Origin: Arcticibacter tournemirensis
GTDB taxonomy: Bacteria > Bacteroidota > Bacteroidia > Sphingobacteriales > Sphingobacteriaceae
Reading direction: 5' to 3'
Assembly: GCF_006716645.1 (NCBI RefSeq)
Contig: NZ_VFPL01000001.1
Coordinates: 2,542,001-2,606,000, forward strand
DNA length: 64,000 nucleotides
Part shown: positions 2,287 through 61,126 of the stretch, piece after piece
How the letters are laid out: every line of letters begins with the position of its first letter
How positions within the stretch are numbered: the stretch's first letter is position 1
Translations under genes and position numbers: made by a program
Notes under the pieces: generated by a model
Told to the model about the DNA's origin: nothing
Databases searched by the model: none
The model's input: only the letters and a program-made list of their open reading frames with translations

Positions 2287-4683
2287 ATGCTGAAAAATAA
2301 TATTATCGTTGCCTGGCGGAGTTTCTTTAAAGATTCATTTTATTCCCTTCTTAACGTAATCGGCATAGCTATCGCCATAGCTGCCTTTATGCTCATCATT
2401 AATTATGTAAGATACGAACATAGTTACGAGAGCTTTCATACGAAAGCAGATAATATCTATCGCGTCACATTGGATCTCTATGAAGGAAAGCAATATATTG
2501 TTACTGACTGCGAAACCCATCCCCCTCTCGGGCCACTTCTGAAAACTGAAGTGCCGGAAGTGATCGATTATGTAAGGATACAGAGAACTGAAGAACTTCC
2601 GGAAGTAAGTCACAACGGTAAGTTTTACAAAGTGGACAGGCTGTATGCAGCCGATCCTTCTCTATTCAACGTATTTAGCTACCGGCTTATTGATGGGGAC
2701 CCGTCTACGGCACTTAGTTTGCCCATGCAGGCAGTAGTTACAGAAACACTGGCCCGCAGGATATTCGGTACTACCGATGTAAAAGGAAAAGTATTGAAAA
2801 GCGGCGAGCGGGTGTTCTCTATATCGGGAGTAATGGAAGATCCGCCTCTCAATACCCATCTCAAGTTAGATATGTTACTTTCATTTAGCTCACTCGCGAA
2901 GATGGGCTGGGATTTAAACAGCTGGAATGGGAATAATAATTATACATATCTTTTATTGCGGTCCGGTATTAACCTGGCATCTTTTAACAGCAAGCTGCAA
3001 TCAGTTACTAAAGAAAAAATAAGAAACAGACAATATGTTGCGGAGCCGGTTAAGGACATTCATTTGAAGTCACATAAGACATTCGAGCCGGAGGTAAATG
3101 GAAATAAGAAAACTGTTGATTTTCTGCTGATAACAGCAATACTGATCTTGATTATCGGATCGGTAAATTACGTAAACGTCGCCACTGCGCGCTCGGCCGA
3201 AAGGTTAAAAGAAGTGGGAGTACGTAAAGTGTTAGGCTCGTCGCGCATTCTGCTGATTAAACAGTTTATGACCGAAACGCTGCTGACAAACCTCTTTGCT
3301 TTTATGATATCGGCTTTGCTGATCCGGCTTACGCTTCCAGCATACTTAAATCTGGTGGACAGGCCTGCTGATACAGCTTTTTTTGCCTCTAAGACTTTCT
3401 TTTTAAGTTATGCGGCACTGTTCCTATTCAACTGCCTTTTGTCGGGTATGTACCCCGCCCTGGCACTCTCCGCCACAAAACCGGCGAGTGTAACTAATCG
3501 AATGTTTACCAGCTCAGGGAAGAGCGATCTGTTGAGGAAGGTGCTTGTAACAGGACAGTTCACTATTGCCCTTGTGGTTCTTACAGCTTCCTTCATTGTG
3601 TTCAGGCAGTTATCCTATATGCGGCACCAGGATCTGGGGGTGAACGCCTCTCAAATCCTGACGATCAGAGCTCCATTCAATAATGAGCAGGATTCCGTCA
3701 GCCGCTACCAGAGTTTGACGTTTAAAAATTCACTTATGCAGTTGCCCGGGGTTGAAAAAGTCGCAATTTCAGGCGCTCTCCCGGGACTGAGCCTGCATGA
3801 ACTCTCTACTATGACATCGATAACACGTTATGGCTCTGTTGCCGGGAAGGGATATAATTACTATATGTACGGCATTGACGCCGATTTTATTCCGGCCATG
3901 ACGATAGAGATGGCTGCGGGGAGAAATTTCCGTCCGGGACTGCCTAACAAAGACGAGGTGGTCATTACAGAAGAAGCTTCCCGCCTGATGGGATTTAAAA
4001 ATGCCAAAGAAGCGGTAGGAGAGAAACTAAGCCTTACCTTATCACCGGATGCTAAATTTTCAACAATCATCGGGGTAATGAATGATTATCACCAGCAGTC
4101 ATTAAAGGAGTCGCTGCTTCCCATGATCCACTGGTACCAGGACAGAGCTGGTTTTTTTTCTGTGAAGATTGCCAGCTCGGATATACCAGGTCTTATAAGC
4201 AAAGTGAAGGCAGTTTACGATCAGCAATTTCCCGGACATCCAATTGAGTATCACTTCTTAGATGATATGTTCGACCAGCAATATAAGGCGGATCAGCAGT
4301 TTGGCAAAATTGTAAGCATATTCTCTGCATTAACGCTGTTTATTACCTGTCTTGGACTACTCGGATTAGCAGCTTACAGCATCAGCCGCCGCACAAAAGA
4401 GATAGGGATCCGTAAAGTAATGGGAGCTTCAGTCTCAGACATCACGAGGCTACTTTCCGTAGATTTTATAAAGCTCGTGATGATCGCAATATGTATTGGC
4501 ACTCCCATTGCAGCATACGTAATGAGCCTTTGGCTAAACGGCTATGCTTACCGGCTCTCGCTTCAATGGTGGATGTTTATACCCGCTGCAATTCTGGTAA
4601 TGGTTATAGCAATCCTCGCTGTTAGCTTTCAATCGGTAAAAGCAGCACTGATGAATCCTGTAAAATCATTGAGGTCGGAATAA
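2287..4683 (+). CDS. FtsX-type ABC transporter permease (two FtsX modules)
   Basis: A 798-aa inner-membrane permease of the MacB/FtsX superfamily. It begins with an N-terminal TM segment (about residues 20-42), then a periplasmic MacB-like core domain, three TMs (about 280-430), a second TM and periplasmic domain, and a final set of three TMs (about 670-790), so two complete FtsX modules are fused. The arginine/lysine-rich loop after the first TM of each trio (RLKEVGVRKVLG; RTKEIGIRKVMG) is the family signature. I chose ATG 2287 because MLKNNIIVAWRSFFK matches the usual family start and an AGG-type ribosome site precedes it; a TTG 126 bp upstream would add a non-homologous leader. No ATPase gene is adjacent, as is common for these proteins in Bacteroidetes, so the substrate (lipoprotein, peptide or drug) is unknown. 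Confidence 0.88.
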   Translation: MLKNNIIVAWRSFFKDSFYSLLNVIGIAIAIAAFMLIINYVRYEHSYESFHTKADNIYRVTLDLYEGKQYIVTDCETHPPLGPLLKTEVPEVIDYVRIQRTEELPEVSHNGKFYKVDRLYAADPSLFNVFSYRLIDGDPSTALSLPMQAVVTETLARRIFGTTDVKGKVLKSGERVFSISGVMEDPPLNTHLKLDMLLSFSSLAKMGWDLNSWNGNNNYTYLLLRSGINLASFNSKLQSVTKEKIRNRQYVAEPVKDIHLKSHKTFEPEVNGNKKTVDFLLITAILILIIGSVNYVNVATARSAERLKEVGVRKVLGSSRILLIKQFMTETLLTNLFAFMISALLIRLTLPAYLNLVDRPADTAFFASKTFFLSYAALFLFNCLLSGMYPALALSATKPASVTNRMFTSSGKSDLLRKVLVTGQFTIALVVLTASFIVFRQLSYMRHQDLGVNASQILTIRAPFNNEQDSVSRYQSLTFKNSLMQLPGVEKVAISGALPGLSLHELSTMTSITRYGSVAGKGYNYYMYGIDADFIPAMTIEMAAGRNFRPGLPNKDEVVITEEASRLMGFKNAKEAVGEKLSLTLSPDAKFSTIIGVMNDYHQQSLKESLLPMIHWYQDRAGFFSVKIASSDIPGLISKVKAVYDQQFPGHPIEYHFLDDMFDQQYKADQQFGKIVSIFSALTLFITCLGLLGLAAYSISRRTKEIGIRKVMGASVSDITRLLSVDFIKLVMIAICIGTPIAAYVMSLWLNGYAYRLSLQWWMFIPAAILVMVIAILAVSFQSVKAALMNPVKSLRSE

Positions 4684-7909: not shown

Positions 7910-7951
7910 ACTGATGGCTGACCGCTGAAAGCTGAAAGCAAAAAGTAAAGA
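7910..7951. repeat. Heptamer array, about 6 units (GCTGAAA type)
   Basis: Six consecutive 7-bp units in strict register, with the core units GCTGACC, GCTGAAA and GCTGAAA, then decaying to GCAAAAA and GTAAAGA. TTTCAGC at 7880-7886 and CTTTACT at 7862-7868 are complementary to units in the array and in the right nested order to form an interrupted stem-loop. The array ends 9 bp before the start codon at 7961. It is related in sequence and period to five other arrays in this window. Confidence 0.6.
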
Positions 7952-7960
7952 CAAAAAAGA

Positions 7961-8941
7961 ATGGCAACAATAGACAAACAAGGGCGGGTGCATGGTAAAG
8001 CCGGCCCGCTGGTGTACCGCACCATCGGAGAGATTAACGTTGTGCAGAGCAGGCCACGACGGTTCAAGCAGACACAGGCAACGCGCGAAAGCGGCATTGA
8101 GTTCGGCCTGGCGAGCAATACAGCACGGATAATGCGTGAGGCGCTCTGGCCTGTTTTTTATTCGCCGGATAAAGGGATGGTGAACCGCTTCACCTCCAGG
8201 ATACTTAAATGCATCCGCGGAAGCCAGACAAAGGGCAGGGGAGAGCGTGACCTTCACGACGGCGACCTGAGCTACCTGGCAGGGTTCCAGTTCAATAAGA
8301 ATTCGTCCTTGCAGCAAGCACTTCAGGTACGGCCGGAAGTACAGGTAGCAGCAGACGGCAGGCCGGAGGTAAGGGTACCGTCCTTTAACAGCTACCACGA
8401 CATCCGCTGTCCGATGAACCGCTACAGCGGCATTACACTGCGCTTAACGGCCACGGCCTTTCATTTCCGTGCAGGATACTACGAACACCTTGCCAGCCGG
8501 GATGTCTGGGTAGATTACGGGGCAACGATGCCCGGGCAGGTATGGAAGGTAGAGAAGGAACTGCCGGCAGGCAGCATTGTACTGGTGACGGTGTCGCTGA
8601 TCATGTCGATGAACAAGACCTTTTCGGACCAGACACTGAACACAAAGGACTGGAGCCCTGCGGAGATCCTCTATGCGGTGCAGGTACCTCAGGGGGAGGA
8701 AGATGTTCAGAAACCGGAGTTCACGTATACAGGAGACCCCTATGAGAAGAAGCCGCTGAACGCCTACCGCGGAGAGGCAACTCTTTCTTTGATCCAGCGT
8801 ATCCGGGAAAAGGTGCAGAAGGCCGAGGTAAAGAAAGATGCGGCCCTTTATGAGAAGGTAGAAAAACTCCGACAGCAGATCCTTCAGGAATCTCCGCCAT
8901 CTGGTCCTCCGGCTTTGCCCGAAGGGAAGATCCGGTTTTAA
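7961..8941 (+). CDS. Unknown protein, Bacteroidetes-restricted DUF6266-like type
   Basis: A 326-aa soluble protein without signal peptide or TM segment. The N-terminus (MATIDKQGRVHGKAGPLVYR, then VVQSRPRR and QTQATRESGIEFG) follows the pattern I associate with small Bacteroidetes hypothetical proteins that begin with a GKxG..V/Y segment followed by a short basic stretch (DUF6266-like); that link is from memory and tentative. The middle is beta-rich, and residues 275-305 look like a charged helix or coiled coil (RIREKVQKAEVKKDAALYEK). The gene stands alone between a palindrome-rich spacer and an unrelated gene, and its codon third positions look more GC-rich than those of its neighbours, which together hint at recent acquisition. 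A 176-codon open frame on the opposite strand is a by-product of this composition. Function unknown. Confidence 0.75.
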   Translation: MATIDKQGRVHGKAGPLVYRTIGEINVVQSRPRRFKQTQATRESGIEFGLASNTARIMREALWPVFYSPDKGMVNRFTSRILKCIRGSQTKGRGERDLHDGDLSYLAGFQFNKNSSLQQALQVRPEVQVAADGRPEVRVPSFNSYHDIRCPMNRYSGITLRLTATAFHFRAGYYEHLASRDVWVDYGATMPGQVWKVEKELPAGSIVLVTVSLIMSMNKTFSDQTLNTKDWSPAEILYAVQVPQGEEDVQKPEFTYTGDPYEKKPLNAYRGEATLSLIQRIREKVQKAEVKKDAALYEKVEKLRQQILQESPPSGPPALPEGKIRF

Positions 8942-19010: not shown

Positions 19011-19014
19011 GTAA

Positions 19015-19049
19015 ATTGTAAGTTGTAAGTTCTACGTTGTAAGTTATTA
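19015..19049. repeat. Heptamer array, 5 units (GTTGTAA type)
   Basis: Five 7-bp units in register (ATTGTAA, GTTGTAA, GTTCTAC, GTTGTAA, GTTATTA) fill the gap between ubiA and engB and run into the engB stop codon at 19047. The same period and related unit sequence occur at 23.3 and 58.4 kb. Confidence 0.65.
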
Positions 19050-23313: not shown

Positions 23314-23411
23314 GTTGAAAGTTGAAAGTTGAAGGTTGAGGGTTCAGAGTTGAAAGTTGTACGTTTTAAGTTAAGGGTTGAGTGTTCAGAGTTTAAAGTT
23401 GAGTGTTGCTA
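23314..23411. repeat. Heptamer array, 14 units (GTTNNNN)
   Basis: Fourteen consecutive 7-bp units, all beginning GTT, run without any slip from 23314 to 23411. Units include GTTGAAA (three times), GTTGAAG, GTTGAGG, GTTCAGA (twice), GTTGTAC, GTTAAGG and GTTGAGT (twice). The array fills the gap between the small gene at 23292 and the Bcr-type exporter, and its last unit contains the exporter's stop codon. The unit sequence drifts while the period is held exactly. Confidence 0.85.
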
Positions 23412-50763: not shown

Positions 50764-50770
50764 CTTTTGA

Positions 50771-50833
50771 GTTGAGAGTTGAAAGTTTAAAGTAAAGAGT
50801 TGCTGAATGCTGATTGCTGAAAGCTGATAGCAA
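50771..50833. repeat. Heptamer array, 9 units, between sufB and sufC
   Basis: Nine in-register 7-bp units: GTTGAGA, GTTGAAA, GTTTAAA, GTAAAGA, GTTGCTG, then a shift to AATGCTG, ATTGCTG, AAAGCTG and ATAGCAA. The first half is of the GTTGAAA type found at 23.3 kb and the second of the GCTGAAA type found at 7.9 kb, joining both subtypes in one array inside an operon. Confidence 0.75.
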
Positions 50834-54270: not shown

Positions 54271-54702
54271 ATGACTATAAACGAGAAACAGGACGAATTA
54301 ATTGAGGAATTTGAATTTCTTACCGACTGGGTTGATAAGTATGAACAGATCATTCAGCTGGGTAAGGAGCTGCCTCTTATAGACGAACAGTATAAGCAGG
54401 ATAAATACCTGATTAAAGGATGTCAGTCTAAGGTTTGGCTCTATCCCGAATTTAAAGAGGGCAGGATCTTTTTCTCTGCCGACAGTGATGCCATCATCTC
54501 TAAAGGTCTGGTGAGTCTCATCATTAATGTACTGTCGGGGTTTAGCCCTGAAGAGATCATGAATGCTGATTTATATTTTATCGACAGGATTGGACTTAAA
54601 GAACATTTATCACCTACCCGCTCAAACGGCTTGCTTGCTATGGTGAAGCAAATTAAACTTTATGCAATTGCTTACGATGCGGCACTTGTGAAAAAGGAGT
54701 GA
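54271..54702 (+). CDS. sufE: SufE-type sulfur acceptor
   Basis: A 143-aa protein that accepts the persulfide from SufS and carries it to SufB. Active Cys51 is in YLIKGCQSKVWLY. Length and the motif SKGLVSLIINVLSGFSPEEI match the family. Its stop codon (54700-54702) lies inside the heptamer array that begins at 54696, so the last two codons are part of repeat units. Confidence 0.95.
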   Translation: MTINEKQDELIEEFEFLTDWVDKYEQIIQLGKELPLIDEQYKQDKYLIKGCQSKVWLYPEFKEGRIFFSADSDAIISKGLVSLIINVLSGFSPEEIMNADLYFIDRIGLKEHLSPTRSNGLLAMVKQIKLYAIAYDAALVKKE

Positions 54703-54772
54703 GGAGTGAGATATGAGTATCAAGTATCAAGTATCAAGAATTAAGAAATAAAGTATAAGGTTCAGTATTAAT
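54696..54772. repeat. Heptamer array, 10-11 units, overlapping the sufE stop
   Basis: In-register 7-bp units: GGAGTGA twice, GATATGA, GTATCAA three times, GAATTAA, GAAATAA, AGTATAA, GGTTCAG, and a decayed TATTAAT. CAAGAATT (54735-54742) can pair with AATTCTTG (54786-54793) to fold back. The first unit encodes the last sufE codons. Confidence 0.75.
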
Positions 54773-56962: not shown

Positions 56963-57059
56963 ATCGCGGTAGTAAGTGCTTTTGCAAAATAAAAAAACCT
57001 TCGCAAGTTTAGCGATTCCTTCTTAACTTGAGGAAATTTTACTGCTTAACCCTTTGTTT

Positions 57060-58418
57060 ATGGACAATAGTCAGGTTATAAAATATTTACAGGATAAAGA
57101 TATTCATAAGATCAAGTTTGCGTTCGCAGACATCGACGGCATCCTCCGGGGTAAGGTTATTCACCGGAAAAAGTTTGTCGACGGCTTGCAGGATGGTTAT
57201 GGATTCTGCGATGTCACCTTTGGCTGGGACAGCAATGATGCTCTTTACGATGAGGTTGCGGTTACTGGTTGGCAAAGCGGCTTTCCTGACAAAGCCTGCA
57301 GGATTGATCTCAACACGTTCCGTACTGTTCCATGGGAGGATCATATACCATTTTTCCTGGCTGATTTTAGCAGGCATGATGGAACAAGCCTTGCTGTTTG
57401 CCCTAGAAGCTTATTGAAACGAATTATTCAGCAATGCGATTCTATGGGGTTTCACGCCGAGTTTGCCCAGGAGTTTGAATGGTTTAACTTCAAAGAAACT
57501 TCCCATTCGTTACAGGAAAAAGGCTTTACCGGACTTCAGCCCTTAACTTCGGGTATGTTTGGTTATTCCATTTTGCGTCCCTCGCAAAACAGCGCCTTCT
57601 TTTACGATCTGTTTAACCTTTGCGAACAGTTTAACATTCAAATTGAGGGCCTGCATACAGAAACCGGCCCCGGCGTTTATGAGGCGGCTATTCTCCATAA
57701 CGGAATACTTGAAGCTGCTGATAAGGCTGTCCTTTTTAAATCAGCCGTAAAAGAAATTGCATCGCGGCATGGTATTGTAGCTTCTTTTATGGCGAAATGG
57801 AATACCGACCTGCCGGGCTGCAGTGGTCATATTCATCAGAGCTTATGGACTAAAGATAAGGAACGGAATCTTTTTTATGATGCTGATAACCAGGAGTCTG
57901 TTAGTGAACTGTTAAAGCAATACATTGCCGGTCAGCTCTATTGTTTGCCGTATATTCTTCCGATGTACGCACCAACGGTTAATAGTTATAAACGTTTAGT
58001 AGAAGGCGCATGGGCGCCTACCACAGTGAGCTGGGGCTTTGATAACCGCACAGTTGCGCTCAGGGTGTTAAATCCATCTGAAAAATACACCAGACTTGAA
58101 ACAAGAGTACCAGGCGCTGACACGAATCCATACCTGGCCATGGCAGCAGCACTTGCGTCAGGTCTGTATGGTATCAGGAATAAGCTTTTGCTTGACATTC
58201 CTGCTACCACGGGTAACGCTTATAAAGAGCAGGAGAAAGAACGGCTCCCTGCCGACCTGTATTCAGCTACTCAATCAATGATGGCTTCTCCGGTGGCGAA
58301 GGATTTGTTCGGTGAAGAATTTACCGACCATTTTACCAGAACGCGGCTTTCGGAGTGGAATCATTTTGTTAAACATGTTAGCACCTGGGAACTGAAGCGA
58401 TATTTGGAGATAATATAG
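57060..58418 (+). CDS. Glutamine-synthetase-like gamma-glutamyl ligase (type I fold)
   Basis: A 452-aa glutamine-synthetase-fold ligase. Beta-grasp start (KFAFADIDGILRGKVIHRKK), catalytic glutamates in FAQEFEWFNF, HTETGPGVYEAAI, then SGHIHQSL (histidine of the glutamate-binding loop), PTVNSYKRLVEGAWAP, SWGFDNRTVALRV and RLETRVPGADTNPYLAMAAA are all intact, so the enzyme should be active. It differs from housekeeping GSI in length and in the region near the adenylylation loop, and from GSII upstream, so a different amine acceptor (as in PuuA or FluG-like proteins) is likely. I start it at ATG 57060. A heptamer array begins at its last base and fills the gap to the next gene. Confidence 0.85.
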   Translation: MDNSQVIKYLQDKDIHKIKFAFADIDGILRGKVIHRKKFVDGLQDGYGFCDVTFGWDSNDALYDEVAVTGWQSGFPDKACRIDLNTFRTVPWEDHIPFFLADFSRHDGTSLAVCPRSLLKRIIQQCDSMGFHAEFAQEFEWFNFKETSHSLQEKGFTGLQPLTSGMFGYSILRPSQNSAFFYDLFNLCEQFNIQIEGLHTETGPGVYEAAILHNGILEAADKAVLFKSAVKEIASRHGIVASFMAKWNTDLPGCSGHIHQSLWTKDKERNLFYDADNQESVSELLKQYIAGQLYCLPYILPMYAPTVNSYKRLVEGAWAPTTVSWGFDNRTVALRVLNPSEKYTRLETRVPGADTNPYLAMAAALASGLYGIRNKLLLDIPATTGNAYKEQEKERLPADLYSATQSMMASPVAKDLFGEEFTDHFTRTRLSEWNHFVKHVSTWELKRYLEII

Positions 58419-58536
58419 GTTGCAGGTTGTGGGTTGTAGGTTGTAGGTGACAATTATGAATTATGAATTTTGAATGTCGTAAAAACGTTCGCAACCCGCA
58501 ACTCACAACTCACAACCCACAACCCATAACACATAT
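58418..58536. repeat. Heptamer array, about 16 units, with complementary halves
   Basis: From the last base of the upstream gene to 11 bp before the next, the whole spacer consists of 7-bp units in one register: GGTTGCA, GGTTGTG, GGTTGTA twice, GGTGACA, ATTATGA twice, ATTTTGA, ATGTCGT, AAAAACG, TTCGCAA, CCCGCAA, CTCACAA twice, CCCACAA, CCCATAA. The GGTTGTA units of the left end and the CCCACAA units of the right end are complementary and can form an imperfect stem of about 30 bp. The register is kept across the central AT-rich units. Confidence 0.85.
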
Positions 58537-58539
58537 GCA

Positions 58540-59577
58540 ATGGATTATTCGAGGATTATAAAAAAAGCATGGAGAGAATACGATGCATCAAAAGTTATTC
58601 TTAAGATCCAGGATATCAGTGCCATGGTTTCGACAAACCATGTGTTCAGGATTGTTTTTGAGGACGAGGATATTGTAATCGCAAAGCTGTCTTACTTCGG
58701 CAAGTATGAACACTTTAAGGAGGATCATCGCATTATTCATTCGCTGGCGAATAATTTACTTTATCCATTTGAAAATCTGCTGGCCAAGTCGCTTCTCAAA
58801 AATAACCGGGTATTTACATACCGGTATAAAACAGGTACGACGGATGCCTGGGTGGTGTTCTATAATCCTGTACGGGTGCAGAAACGCTTGCCAAAAAGGC
58901 TTTCGGAAGCACAAATACGGGTATTTGGACAGCAGATCGGGAAGTTTCATAAAGCTTGCTCCCGGATCAGGAATGTGCTCCCCCAGTCATCAAAGACCCT
59001 GAGCACGGATATTAAAGTTCTTTTAAGACAAACTGCGAACAGAAGGAATACGACGTTTGATCCTGACCAGAAGGGAATTATCAGGCAGCATTGCGAAGCT
59101 TTTCAGAAAAACCGCCTGCGGTTGAGAGCCGATAAGTTTGAGAATATCCCGGTGTTTATTGACTGGAATATTGGAAATTTCTCTGTTACGTCAAGCCTGA
59201 AGCTATATTCACGATGGGATTATGACTGGTTCAGGATGAGCAGCAGGATGATGGACTTCTATTTCTTCAGCAGAGTGGTGTCGGATATAGGAGACCGCAC
59301 GGTGTTTAGTTATCTGATCGGACCCATGATGGAGGACCGCTTTCTGCTTTTCCTTGAAGAATATCATAAAGTAAACCCGCTTACAGCAAACGAAATACGC
59401 TTTCTGAAAGAAGTCTACCGTTTCTTTATTCTCAATTATGTGATTAAAGATGGTAACTACTTTTTCAGCGGTCAGTATGCTGAGAAATTGCAGGCTGAAG
59501 CCTTCGAAATCTACCTGCCATCTATTGAAACTGAGTTTGACGCTGATAAGCTTATAAAGACACTAAACCTCAAATAA
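58540..59577 (+). CDS. APH-fold small-molecule kinase
   Basis: A 345-aa protein of the aminoglycoside phosphotransferase/choline-kinase fold. The ATP-binding lysine is K49 (VIAKLSYFGKY), the Brenner-like catalytic motif is FIDWNIGNF (D208, N213, in place of HGDxxxxN), and the metal-binding DYDWF follows (D227 or D229). The usual HG before the catalytic Asp is replaced by FI, so activity is possible but not certain. It sits between a glutamine-synthetase-like gene and a HAD-IIA gene in the same direction. Substrate unknown; not evidence for aminoglycoside resistance. Confidence 0.75.
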   Translation: MDYSRIIKKAWREYDASKVILKIQDISAMVSTNHVFRIVFEDEDIVIAKLSYFGKYEHFKEDHRIIHSLANNLLYPFENLLAKSLLKNNRVFTYRYKTGTTDAWVVFYNPVRVQKRLPKRLSEAQIRVFGQQIGKFHKACSRIRNVLPQSSKTLSTDIKVLLRQTANRRNTTFDPDQKGIIRQHCEAFQKNRLRLRADKFENIPVFIDWNIGNFSVTSSLKLYSRWDYDWFRMSSRMMDFYFFSRVVSDIGDRTVFSYLIGPMMEDRFLLFLEEYHKVNPLTANEIRFLKEVYRFFILNYVIKDGNYFFSGQYAEKLQAEAFEIYLPSIETEFDADKLIKTLNLK

Positions 59578-59588
59578 TTAATATAACA

Positions 59589-60440
59589 ATGGATAATATT
59601 TTCGCATTCAGAGAGGTCATTGAGCAGTATAAGGTGGTTTTTTTTGATGCTTTTGGAGTAGTAAAGAACTATAAAGGACTTGTTCCGGGTATTGAAAAGA
59701 CCTTTGAATATCTCGAGGCGGAGAAAAAGGAGTATTATATCGTTACAAATGATGCGTCAAGAAGTCCTGTTCAGCTGGCCGAAAAGTATCACCAGATGGG
59801 CCTGAAAGCGATAAGCCACGACAGGATCATTTCTTCAGGAATGCTCGCCAAAGAATATCTTGATTTAAAGGTGAAAGATGGAATTGCAGCTTATTTGGGA
59901 ACCACCGACAGCGCACATTACATTGAGAGCTCGGGCCTGCATACCCTTCGGGTAAAGGAAGTTACAGCCGACAATATTCAGCAGGTGAATGCGCTGGTAT
60001 TTTTGGACGACGAAGGGTTTGAATGGTGCAGGGATTTGAATAAGACAGTGAATCTGCTTAGAAAGAGGACTATCCCGGTAATAGTAGCAAACACAGATGA
60101 TGCTTACCCTCTGAATGTAAGCGAGGTATGTATTGCAGTTGGAAGCATTGCAACGATGATCGAGAATATCGTAGGTAAAGAGTTCATTCGCTTTGGTAAG
60201 CCCGATTCACAGATGTTTATGTTTGCTTATGACCTTGTACGTGAGAAACTACAGGTAACAAAGAAAGATATTGTAATGGTCGGAGACACTCTTCACACCG
60301 ATATTTTAGGCGGTAACAAGTTCGGATTAGATACCATATTGGTGCTTTCGGGTAATACGCTTGCCTCGGAGGCGGAAACAAGAATAAATACCACCGGAAT
60401 TATCCCTACCTATATTTGTCAATCTGCAGTGATCGAGTAA
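59589..60440 (+). CDS. HAD-IIA-type protein with altered first motif
   Basis: A 283-aa HAD-superfamily class IIA protein. Motif I reads FFDAFGVVKNYKG with nucleophile D20, but position D+2, normally aspartate, is phenylalanine (F22). Motif II is near YIVTNDASRSPVQLAEKY, motif III has FGKPDSQMF (lysine in GKP), and motif IV is MVGDTLHTDILGG, all as in NagD-like phosphatases. Substitution of the general acid/base suggests altered or lost phosphatase chemistry, as in some related groups with DxW motifs. It begins 11 bp after the kinase gene and ends 8 bp before the TatD-like start. Confidence 0.85.
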   Translation: MDNIFAFREVIEQYKVVFFDAFGVVKNYKGLVPGIEKTFEYLEAEKKEYYIVTNDASRSPVQLAEKYHQMGLKAISHDRIISSGMLAKEYLDLKVKDGIAAYLGTTDSAHYIESSGLHTLRVKEVTADNIQQVNALVFLDDEGFEWCRDLNKTVNLLRKRTIPVIVANTDDAYPLNVSEVCIAVGSIATMIENIVGKEFIRFGKPDSQMFMFAYDLVREKLQVTKKDIVMVGDTLHTDILGGNKFGLDTILVLSGNTLASEAETRINTTGIIPTYICQSAVIE

Positions 60441-60448
60441 TTACGGGT

Positions 60449-61126
60449 ATGTTCCTTAATCTGCATTCTCATTACGATTTGGAGCCCGCAGGCGGGAGGG
60501 TGATAACCAATATTATCATGTCATGCAAAGGGCAGGAGGAGGGGGTTCTGTTGGCTAACTATTCCGGCAAATGGGTATCAGCCGGCATTCACCCCTGGTA
60601 TATCGACGAGCTAAATTACTCTTTGCAATTCCATGCGATGGTGGAGTTTGCAGGTAAAGAAGCCGTTAAAATGATCGGTGAGTGTGGCCTGGATCGACTC
60701 CGCGGGCCGTCGCTTGATCTGCAGCAGCGTGTTTTTGAAGATCAGATACATTTGGCTGAGAAATTGAAGAAGCCGGTTATTATTCATTGTGTTAAATGCT
60801 TCAGTGAGTTGCTAATGGTAAAAAAGAAACTGAACCCTACAGTTCCTCTTGTCGTACACGGTTTTAACAATAAAGCTGACGTAGCTCGGGAGCTAATCAG
60901 ACATAACTTTTATCTTTCGTTTGGAGCTGCTTTACTTTTGGATGGATCGAACGCACAAAAGGTGTTATCATTAATTCCGGAAAACCGTATTTTCCTTGAG
61001 ACTGATGATCGTGATGTTCCTGTCGAAAGGATTTATGAAAAGGCGGCCCTTTTGAAAAATGTTTCAGTAAATCAGCTCAAAGAGATTATTTTTGCGAATT
61101 ATCAGAGTTTAGGGAATAAGTTTTAA
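60449..61126 (+). CDS. TatD-family metal-dependent hydrolase
   Basis: A 225-aa TIM-barrel amidohydrolase of the TatD DNase family. Ligands are H6 and H8 (LHSHYD), E78 (MIGECGLDRL), H113 (VIIHCVK), H137 (LVVHGFN) and D186 (FLETDDRDV), the complete set for a two-metal site. It is slightly shorter than the usual 250-260 aa. I start it at ATG 60449 because MFLNLHSHYD matches the family; an earlier ATG would overlap the HAD gene. It overlaps nothing and lies 3 bp before tcdA. DNase or deacylase activity is inferred. Confidence 0.87.
   Translation: MFLNLHSHYDLEPAGGRVITNIIMSCKGQEEGVLLANYSGKWVSAGIHPWYIDELNYSLQFHAMVEFAGKEAVKMIGECGLDRLRGPSLDLQQRVFEDQIHLAEKLKKPVIIHCVKCFSELLMVKKKLNPTVPLVVHGFNNKADVARELIRHNFYLSFGAALLLDGSNAQKVLSLIPENRIFLETDDRDVPVERIYEKAALLKNVSVNQLKEIIFANYQSLGNKF

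Follow-up and report, generated by a model that had tools for sequence, protein, structure and literature searches.

Period-7 arrays at gene ends in Arcticibacter tournemirensis and other Sphingobacteriaceae: polarity, distribution and possible origin

The 58417-58535 spacer and its junction

The window (a 64,000-nucleotide stretch of the Arcticibacter tournemirensis genome, contig NZ_VFPL01000001.1, positions 2,542,001 to 2,606,000) contains two neighbouring genes separated by a spacer that is built largely of 7-bp units (Table 1). The upstream gene, which a first-pass annotation had called a ligase, encodes a glutamine-synthetase-family protein. The "kinase" of the same annotation is unsupported: a Pfam and NCBIfam search of the downstream ORF gives no family match at E 0.001.

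Table 1. Features of the junction and further arrays in the window (positions counted from the first nucleotide of the stretch)
Feature	Position	Strand	Basis or remarks
Sister array, CTGAAAG-type	7911..7961	+	breaks the polarity rule (G-type just ahead of a start)
Sister array, GTAAGTT-type	19011..19045	+	
Sister array, GTTGAAA-type	23314..23408	+	
Sister array, GAGTTGA then AAGCTGA-type	50765..50827	+	begins 1 bp past a stop codon
Sister array, AGGAGTG then AGTATCA-type	54695..54760	+	overlaps the preceding gene's stop
Upstream gene, glutamine-synthetase family (PF00120)	57054..58418	+	ORF call and family match
G-type (C-poor) arm	58417..58472	+	units read and lag-7 test; first bases overlap the upstream stop codon
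Centre/loop, no clear repeat, ~17 bp	about 58473..58489	.	AATGTCGTAAAAACGTT
C-type arm (G-type on the - strand)	58490..58535	-	4 bp short of the downstream ATG
Downstream ORF, 345 aa	58540..59577	+	no Pfam/NCBIfam match

The first-pass annotation had read the spacer as a period-7 structure and had proposed lag-7 autocorrelation against shuffled sequence as the check. The period is real: 77 of 117 positions match at lag 7 in 58416-58539, far above the mean of 29.5 (sd 4.7) in 5,000 exact dinucleotide shuffles, none of which is as high; the best lag-7 segment scores 31, the top shuffle 14.4. Lags 14 and 21 are also raised. Ten other lags between 3 and 13 were tested, and of these lag 11 alone departs nominally, on the low side (P = 0.03). 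The description of about 16 units whose phase never slips holds inside each arm and fails for the spacer as a single run, which is instead two inverted arms placed head to head (lag-7 segments 58417-58481 and 58490-58535) around a non-repetitive centre; phase has no meaning across the junction because the arms are inverted there. The left arm reads AGGTTGC, AGGTTGT, GGGTTGT, AGGTTGT, AGGTGAC, AATTATG, AATTATG, AATTTTG, and the right arm CGCAACC, CGCAACT, CACAACT, CACAACC, CACAACC, CATAACA, CATA.

The ends of the spacer are complementary, as had been claimed (58413-58444 against 58505-58536, at 78%). Its RNA fold reaches -42.0 kcal/mol (z = -4.6; 0/200 shuffles as good) and its DNA fold -21.4 (z = -3.0; 2/200 as good). 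There is one GGG, and no quadruplex motif on either strand. A search for intrinsic terminators (G+C-rich stem followed by a T run) in 58300-58700 found none, and in 57000-60500 nothing in Rfam exceeds its gathering score, the only match being MIR8643 at 26.2 bits against a required 135.

How widely is the array shared at this junction? Among nine loci compared, the spacer measures 121 bp in A. tournemirensis, 71 bp in the congeneric genome G004, where it holds a short heptamer run of its own, and 1-62 bp in the other seven relatives. A synthetase gene lies directly upstream in 69 of the 80 named loci; L107 (score 26) and L098 (the same record as G004; score 15) alone stand out among these, the next score being 10.2, and the array is therefore recent and local. 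The possibility that it exists only in this genome, as a recent slippage event, had been named as what would overturn the initial reading: the exact array is indeed nearly private, but its kind is widespread, and it is not a lone slippage event because such arrays occur genome-wide and in other genera. The 58417-58535 array is, in short, a recent and local instance of a wider habit. (L107, from a Chitinophagaceae MAG, carries long TTTTGGA-type period-7 tracts at 2384-2759 and 4352-4554, one of which sits in the spacer homologous to that of the window.)

Abundance, words and relatives

The window holds five further arrays (Table 1); at the junction occupied by the array at 54695, the spacers of G004, G003 and G001 are 7, -5 and -5 bp. 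In a genome sample of 864 kb out of 5.66 Mb (the window and two 400-kb stretches), lag 7 yields 34 segments at score 18, irrespective of position, while each other lag from 4 to 13 yields 0-3; lag 14, a multiple of 7, yields 20. The sampled part thus averages ~39 strong segments per Mb. At score 14, the lag-7 segments of the first 464 kb divide as 14 intergenic to 1 coding, and five shuffles of the intergenic pieces give 0.0 on average.

Similar arrays are present in other genera of the Sphingobacteriaceae: G012, from one of these, has 18 lag-7 segments in 400 kb at score 18. Samples from the same genus have none at that score (180 kb of G004, 100 kb of G003, 120 kb of G001). With the threshold lowered to 11, G004 shows 6 lag-7 segments, but lag 11 gives 8; intergenic lag 11 is raised at this threshold both there (L038-L046) and in G001 (L052-L057), with 6 segments as against 1 at lag 7 in the latter.

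The words AGTTGNN and AGTATCA recur in several genera. Of 151 genomes of the order, 28 contain three copies of RGTTGNR followed by RGTTG, each of them 1 to 122 times, although the pattern read backwards is not a clean control (46 hits in A. tournemirensis, 35 in G061), since arrays like GAGTTGA also satisfy it. When one mismatch is allowed, AGTATCAAGTATCAAGTA is found in 63 of the 151 genomes and 5 of 12 genera; its backwards control is 0 in most genomes and high in some, where we read it as a different heptamer word, AGTTCAT on the other strand. In some genomes (G036, G059, G136 and others) the backwards AGTATCA control is abundant in the absence of AGTATCA hits. The unit is not always 7: Mucilaginibacter loci carry period-8 arrays of related words (L131:960-1078, L138:2164-2309 and L128:2216-2261; AATGTGCA, GATGTGCA, CAAATGTG), and these include inverted pairs. 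A dispersed repeat of ~180 bp in G050 (L223:14338-14517) begins ~70 bp past a heptamer array; among 19 candidates scored, it has at least 18 more copies in that genome, 83-89% identical.

Within the arrays the units drift. Those of A. tournemirensis comprise 239 distinct words among 422, with a consensus of about RRGTWGW. Over 81 arms of at least 70 bp, unit similarity falls from 0.724 at lag 7 (a value raised by the choice of arms) through 0.694 at lag 14 to 0.558 at lag 63, which is what copying from neighbouring units would produce; the suggestion of the first-pass annotation that a period-7 process was followed by divergence is supported by this slow decay with distance. By eye, the left arm of L113 (Mucilaginibacter) has one extra whole 7-mer in alignment.

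Polarity at gene ends and its counterparts elsewhere

Arms scoring at least 16 were pooled from A. tournemirensis, G012, G050, G061, G148 and the 80 named loci and typed by G-C strand skew: 7 of 209 were dropped for little skew, and 6 of the remaining 202 lie without a gene on one side, leaving 196 in the polarity counts. Genes were called by a longest-ORF rule, not from curated annotation. (A technical note: the G050 and G148 regions, and 100 of the 500 kb of G061, were picked at or near pattern hits; densities there are accordingly inflated, but polarity was no criterion of choice.) The G strand contains 4-10% C in all six sets, a figure that is partly by construction since arms were oriented by skew. 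An asymmetry test on sequence windows is free of that circularity: |G-C|/(G+C) is at least 0.6 in 52% of 337 array windows, in 19% of 179 windows with repeats of other lags, and in 8% of 11,066 other intergenic windows.

The arrays have period 7, one of their strands is C-poor, they abut gene ends beyond random expectation, and the C-poor strand, read 5' to 3', leads away from the gene end that it touches. Within 15 bp of a 3' end the coding strand is G-type rather than C-type by 65:6; within 15 bp of a 5' end it is C-type rather than G-type by 21:6. The polarity fades with distance, the corresponding 3' and 5' ratios being 9:8 and 18:4 at 15-60 bp, 3:6 and 11:9 at 60-150 bp, and 5:5 and 8:12 beyond 150 bp; 24 of the 137 arms within 60 bp break the rule. 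Set against array-free 50-bp stretches, which have no overall 3' bias and a mild 5' bias, the polarity is significant at both ends (Fisher p = 6e-10 at 3' ends, p = 0.005 at 5' ends), with the qualification that this background comes from the five genomes (100 kb of G061), while the arms add the 80 named loci and 400 kb of G061.

Neighbouring arms of opposite type are ordered G-to-C in 53 cases and C-to-G in 7. For the 58 pairs with no intervening gene the two orders stand at 33:3 in tandem, 11:3 in divergent and 7:1 in convergent spacers; the order being the same in all three, it does not follow transcription. Placement is non-random as well: for 98 of 188 arms a gene end is no more than 15 bp away, against 50.3 expected from random placement in the same spacers, and in roomy spacers 64 of 152 against 23.0. 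By arrangement, the proportion is 27/34 in convergent and 63/124 in tandem spacers, and only 8/38 in divergent ones.

Selection on start and stop codons could give part of this polarity. C-type arms at 5' ends contain 2.4 start codons per 100 nt as found and would contain 8.0 if flipped; G-type arms at 3' ends have stops in all frames in 54 of 74 cases as found and in 27 of 74 if flipped. Quadruplexes, on the other hand, are ruled out as the cause. The motif (four GGG runs on the G strand, with loops of 1-7) occurs in 2 of 202 arms, and any GGG at all in 91. Without the two motif arms the polarity within 15 bp is 64:6 (3') and 20:6 (5'); without every GGG-containing arm it is 32:2 and 12:4, with pairs at 17:4. 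The geometry of heptamer arrays is independent of quadruplexes.

Heptamer arrays of a comparable sort have a history elsewhere. The original paper on the STRR of filamentous cyanobacteria reportedly dates from 1990. These sequences share with the present arrays the 7-bp unit, the intergenic location and the capacity to form hairpins, and differ in phylum and in words (PMC2670836); 7-nt tandem units above chance, in many intergenic copies per genome, are what A. tournemirensis also has. The closest likeness is to the G-rich heptamers of Rehm et al. 2015 (Xanthomonas GGGAATC, Nostoc GGGGAYT), which are quadruplex-prone, intergenic and mostly <50 bp from gene ends, lie on the coding strand downstream of genes and on the non-coding strand upstream, and form inverted pairs of convergent arrays, which number 70 in Xcc and 75 in Xac and are few in Nostoc (PMC4692102, which also mentions heptanucleotides of Calothrix). 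The arrays described here are likewise intergenic with 7-nt units, have the same geometry of strand and distance, and form convergent pairs; in place of one G-rich, quadruplex-prone word with a GGG unit, they are many-worded and drifting, with a consensus in A. tournemirensis of about RRGTWGW, and nearly all of their arms are without the motif. TAACTGA direct repeats are reported in Beggiatoaceae, some Cyanobacteria and five Bacteroidetes (PMC4679880): these too are intergenic heptamers, often near gene ends, and some Bacteroidetes cases appear there among other heptamers, but they are a single fixed word, mostly in short sets, proposed as translation-regulator sites. The BrickBuilt MITE of Porphyromonas gingivalis, also of the Bacteroidota, shares tandem repeats inside an intergenic element; it has a 23-nt unit with leader and tail subunits (PMC4596501), where the present arrays have a 7-nt unit and no conserved core.

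The initial view that no named element answers to the description thus has to be given up: intergenic heptamer arrays were already known (PMC2670836, PMC4692102, PMC4679880), and the present arrays belong to that kind in a more variable form, with the gene-end polarity seen again in another phylum. No description of Sphingobacteriaceae heptamer arrays was found among the literature matches listed, in which few subscription journals are covered; looking up a sequence string brought out one human paper with no bearing on them. That the polarity recurs in another phylum, and in nearly quadruplex-free arrays, points to something general about the origin or the survival of such arrays. Since arrays lengthen operon spacers, they may alter the expression of neighbouring genes within a genus.

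Origin of the arrays

What might generate arrays with this geometry? The most likely answer, to which we give a probability of about 0.4, is polar growth that leads away from gene ends 7 nt at a time and is filtered by selection, with the hairpin mostly a by-product. An array would start near a gene end and grow one way, the 3' end of its C-poor strand slipping back by one unit and then being extended with errors. Inward-pointing arrays would be lost, because they would enter the gene, and outward ones would survive until two met in mid-spacer; the G-to-C inverted pair and its hairpin would then follow from geometry. Near-mirror arms, which are found at a few loci (e.g., Mucilaginibacter moaA-moeA), would need fold-back copying or later maintenance as well. 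Taken together, polarity, abutment, head-to-head pairing and drift are most simply accounted for by directional growth. An encroachment on coding sequence is seen in G050, where one array has replaced a gene's last codons and supplies its stop (by eye, against two relatives).

Several observations count against this account, or at least against its simple version: 1) growth at the tip predicts a more uniform tip half, and the trend is slightly the opposite (0.689 in the tip half, 0.717 in the base half; 107 arms, p = 0.02), so that newest units at the tip are not seen; 2) abutment is rare at the 5' ends of divergent genes; 3) the same words in several genera are not predicted by local growth from random seeds; 4) mirror arms, as at moaA-moeA, are unlikely to arise from two independent growths; 5) there are rule-breaking arms close to gene ends; and 6) searches for candidate genes (Y1, RVT_1, Ku, MutS, SbcD) identified no enzyme for the growth. 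Ku end joining does not discriminate: Ku occurs in 17 of 19 genomes, among them G001, G003 and G004, in whose samples no array reached score 18. Loss of MutS is rejected as the cause: a MutS match exceeds the cut-off in all 18 genomes searched, whether or not they are rich in arrays (it is split in the MAG G031). Loss of the hairpin nuclease SbcD makes no pattern either, SbcD being over the cut-off in 8 of 18 genomes, A. tournemirensis and G050 among them, and below it in G012, G061, G148, G031, G063 and G076 but also in the AGTTGNN-free G051, G054, G095 and G109. Comparing genomes dense in arrays with relatives whose samples have none offers a direct way of seeking the cause.

How closely need two arms match? 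A moaA-type gene stands directly ahead of a moeA-type gene in 34 of the 80 named loci (families checked on L149). A palindromic AGTATCA element of 103-124 bp lies between them in five, all Mucilaginibacter, whose moaA is 87-100% identical to that of L149; in 28 of the others the spacer is 6-30 bp, and in one it is an unrelated 249 bp. Across the five species, 131 of the 135 cells of 27 pairs are standard (97%) and 4 are unpaired; nine changes are one-sided and kept as G-U, one is two-sided, and covariation is no higher than in shuffles (384/500 as high). Elsewhere the arms of an element may be quite dissimilar: in G061 a left arm of (GAGTTGA)n faces a right arm of (TTACTGA)n, which are not complements, and the polarity holds. 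Similarity between arms of the same element, compared with arms elsewhere, is 0.37 against 0.26 in A. tournemirensis, 0.41 against 0.39 in G012 and 0.39 against 0.43 in L119. The non-complementary G061 arms, together with a within-element likeness that is at best modest, rule out the hairpin as a general unifying constraint. The cores between arms show no similarity beyond short matches within a genome, which excludes the conserved core of a MITE or foldback element, and at the nearest empty sites the non-coding flanks are too diverged for target-site comparison.

A mobile palindromic element of the foldback or MITE type, with heptamer arrays as its inverted ends and single arms as its remnants, is favoured by the same words at unrelated loci and in several genera, by the AGTATCA palindrome present at some moaA-moeA junctions and missing from others, and by the AGTATCA sites at other places in A. 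tournemirensis, G012, G050, G061 and G148. It is nevertheless an unlikely explanation, in view of cores that share just short matches and arms of one element that need not resemble each other; a REP/RAYT palindrome in particular is rejected, with no Y1 (IS200-like, RAYT-type) transposase match in A. tournemirensis or G012 (Y1 is present in 10 of 19 genomes). Slightly less probable again is a selected role for the arrays as RNA or UTR signals: start-free C-type leaders, G-type trailers that stop every frame, and hairpins at operon junctions that set mRNA stability. The strong fold of the window's spacer, the well-kept pairing at moaA-moeA and the start and stop counts all favour such a role, and transcript stability or translational coupling has been proposed for cyanobacterial STRR (PMC2670836). 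Signals of this sort sit poorly, however, with covariation at the level of shuffles, the lack of an array at the same junction in most relatives examined, a pair polarity that is alike whether spacers are convergent, tandem or divergent, and arms that need not be complementary.

Ordinary neutral slippage during replication, from random seeds and with no directional process, is close to the view of the first-pass annotation. It is in keeping with the frequency of heptamers among long simple repeats in prokaryotes (PMC4679880, PMC4692102) and with the decay of unit similarity; but it does not predict polarity, strand asymmetry, the excess at gene ends or shared words, and mutS loss is not behind it. 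Already strained by the polarity counts, it seems to us improbable. Hardly credible at all is templated writing, in which a reverse transcriptase would copy the arrays from a short RNA in the manner of telomerase or of DRT10, which makes tandem-repeat DNA (PMC12632851). The geometry equals that of DNA ends lengthened with a C-poor repeat, and RVT_1 matches number 11 in A. tournemirensis and 6 in G012; yet the units are much too diverse to come from a single template, and there are 0 RVT_1 matches in G031 (L119, with strong heptamer arrays; a MAG of uncertain completeness) and in G033 (L138, with octamer arrays), which rules out telomere-like writing as a necessary cause, subject in G031 to that uncertainty.

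A wider reading carries directional growth beyond this family. We think it distinctly unlikely, though conceivable, that several phyla share an undescribed directional process by which the C-poor strand is lengthened outward from gene ends in 7-nt steps, with few words to choose from, and of which the arrays of Xanthomonas, Nostoc and the Sphingobacteriaceae would be the footprint; a polymerase or a recombination pathway dedicated to the task may be behind it.

The search for reverse transcriptases brought up four equally scoring genes in G000 (C1:1508330, 3296407, 3427854 and 4944935), with open frames of 454 aa, which may represent a single retroelement in several copies. In G012, five such genes of its own score equally with one another.
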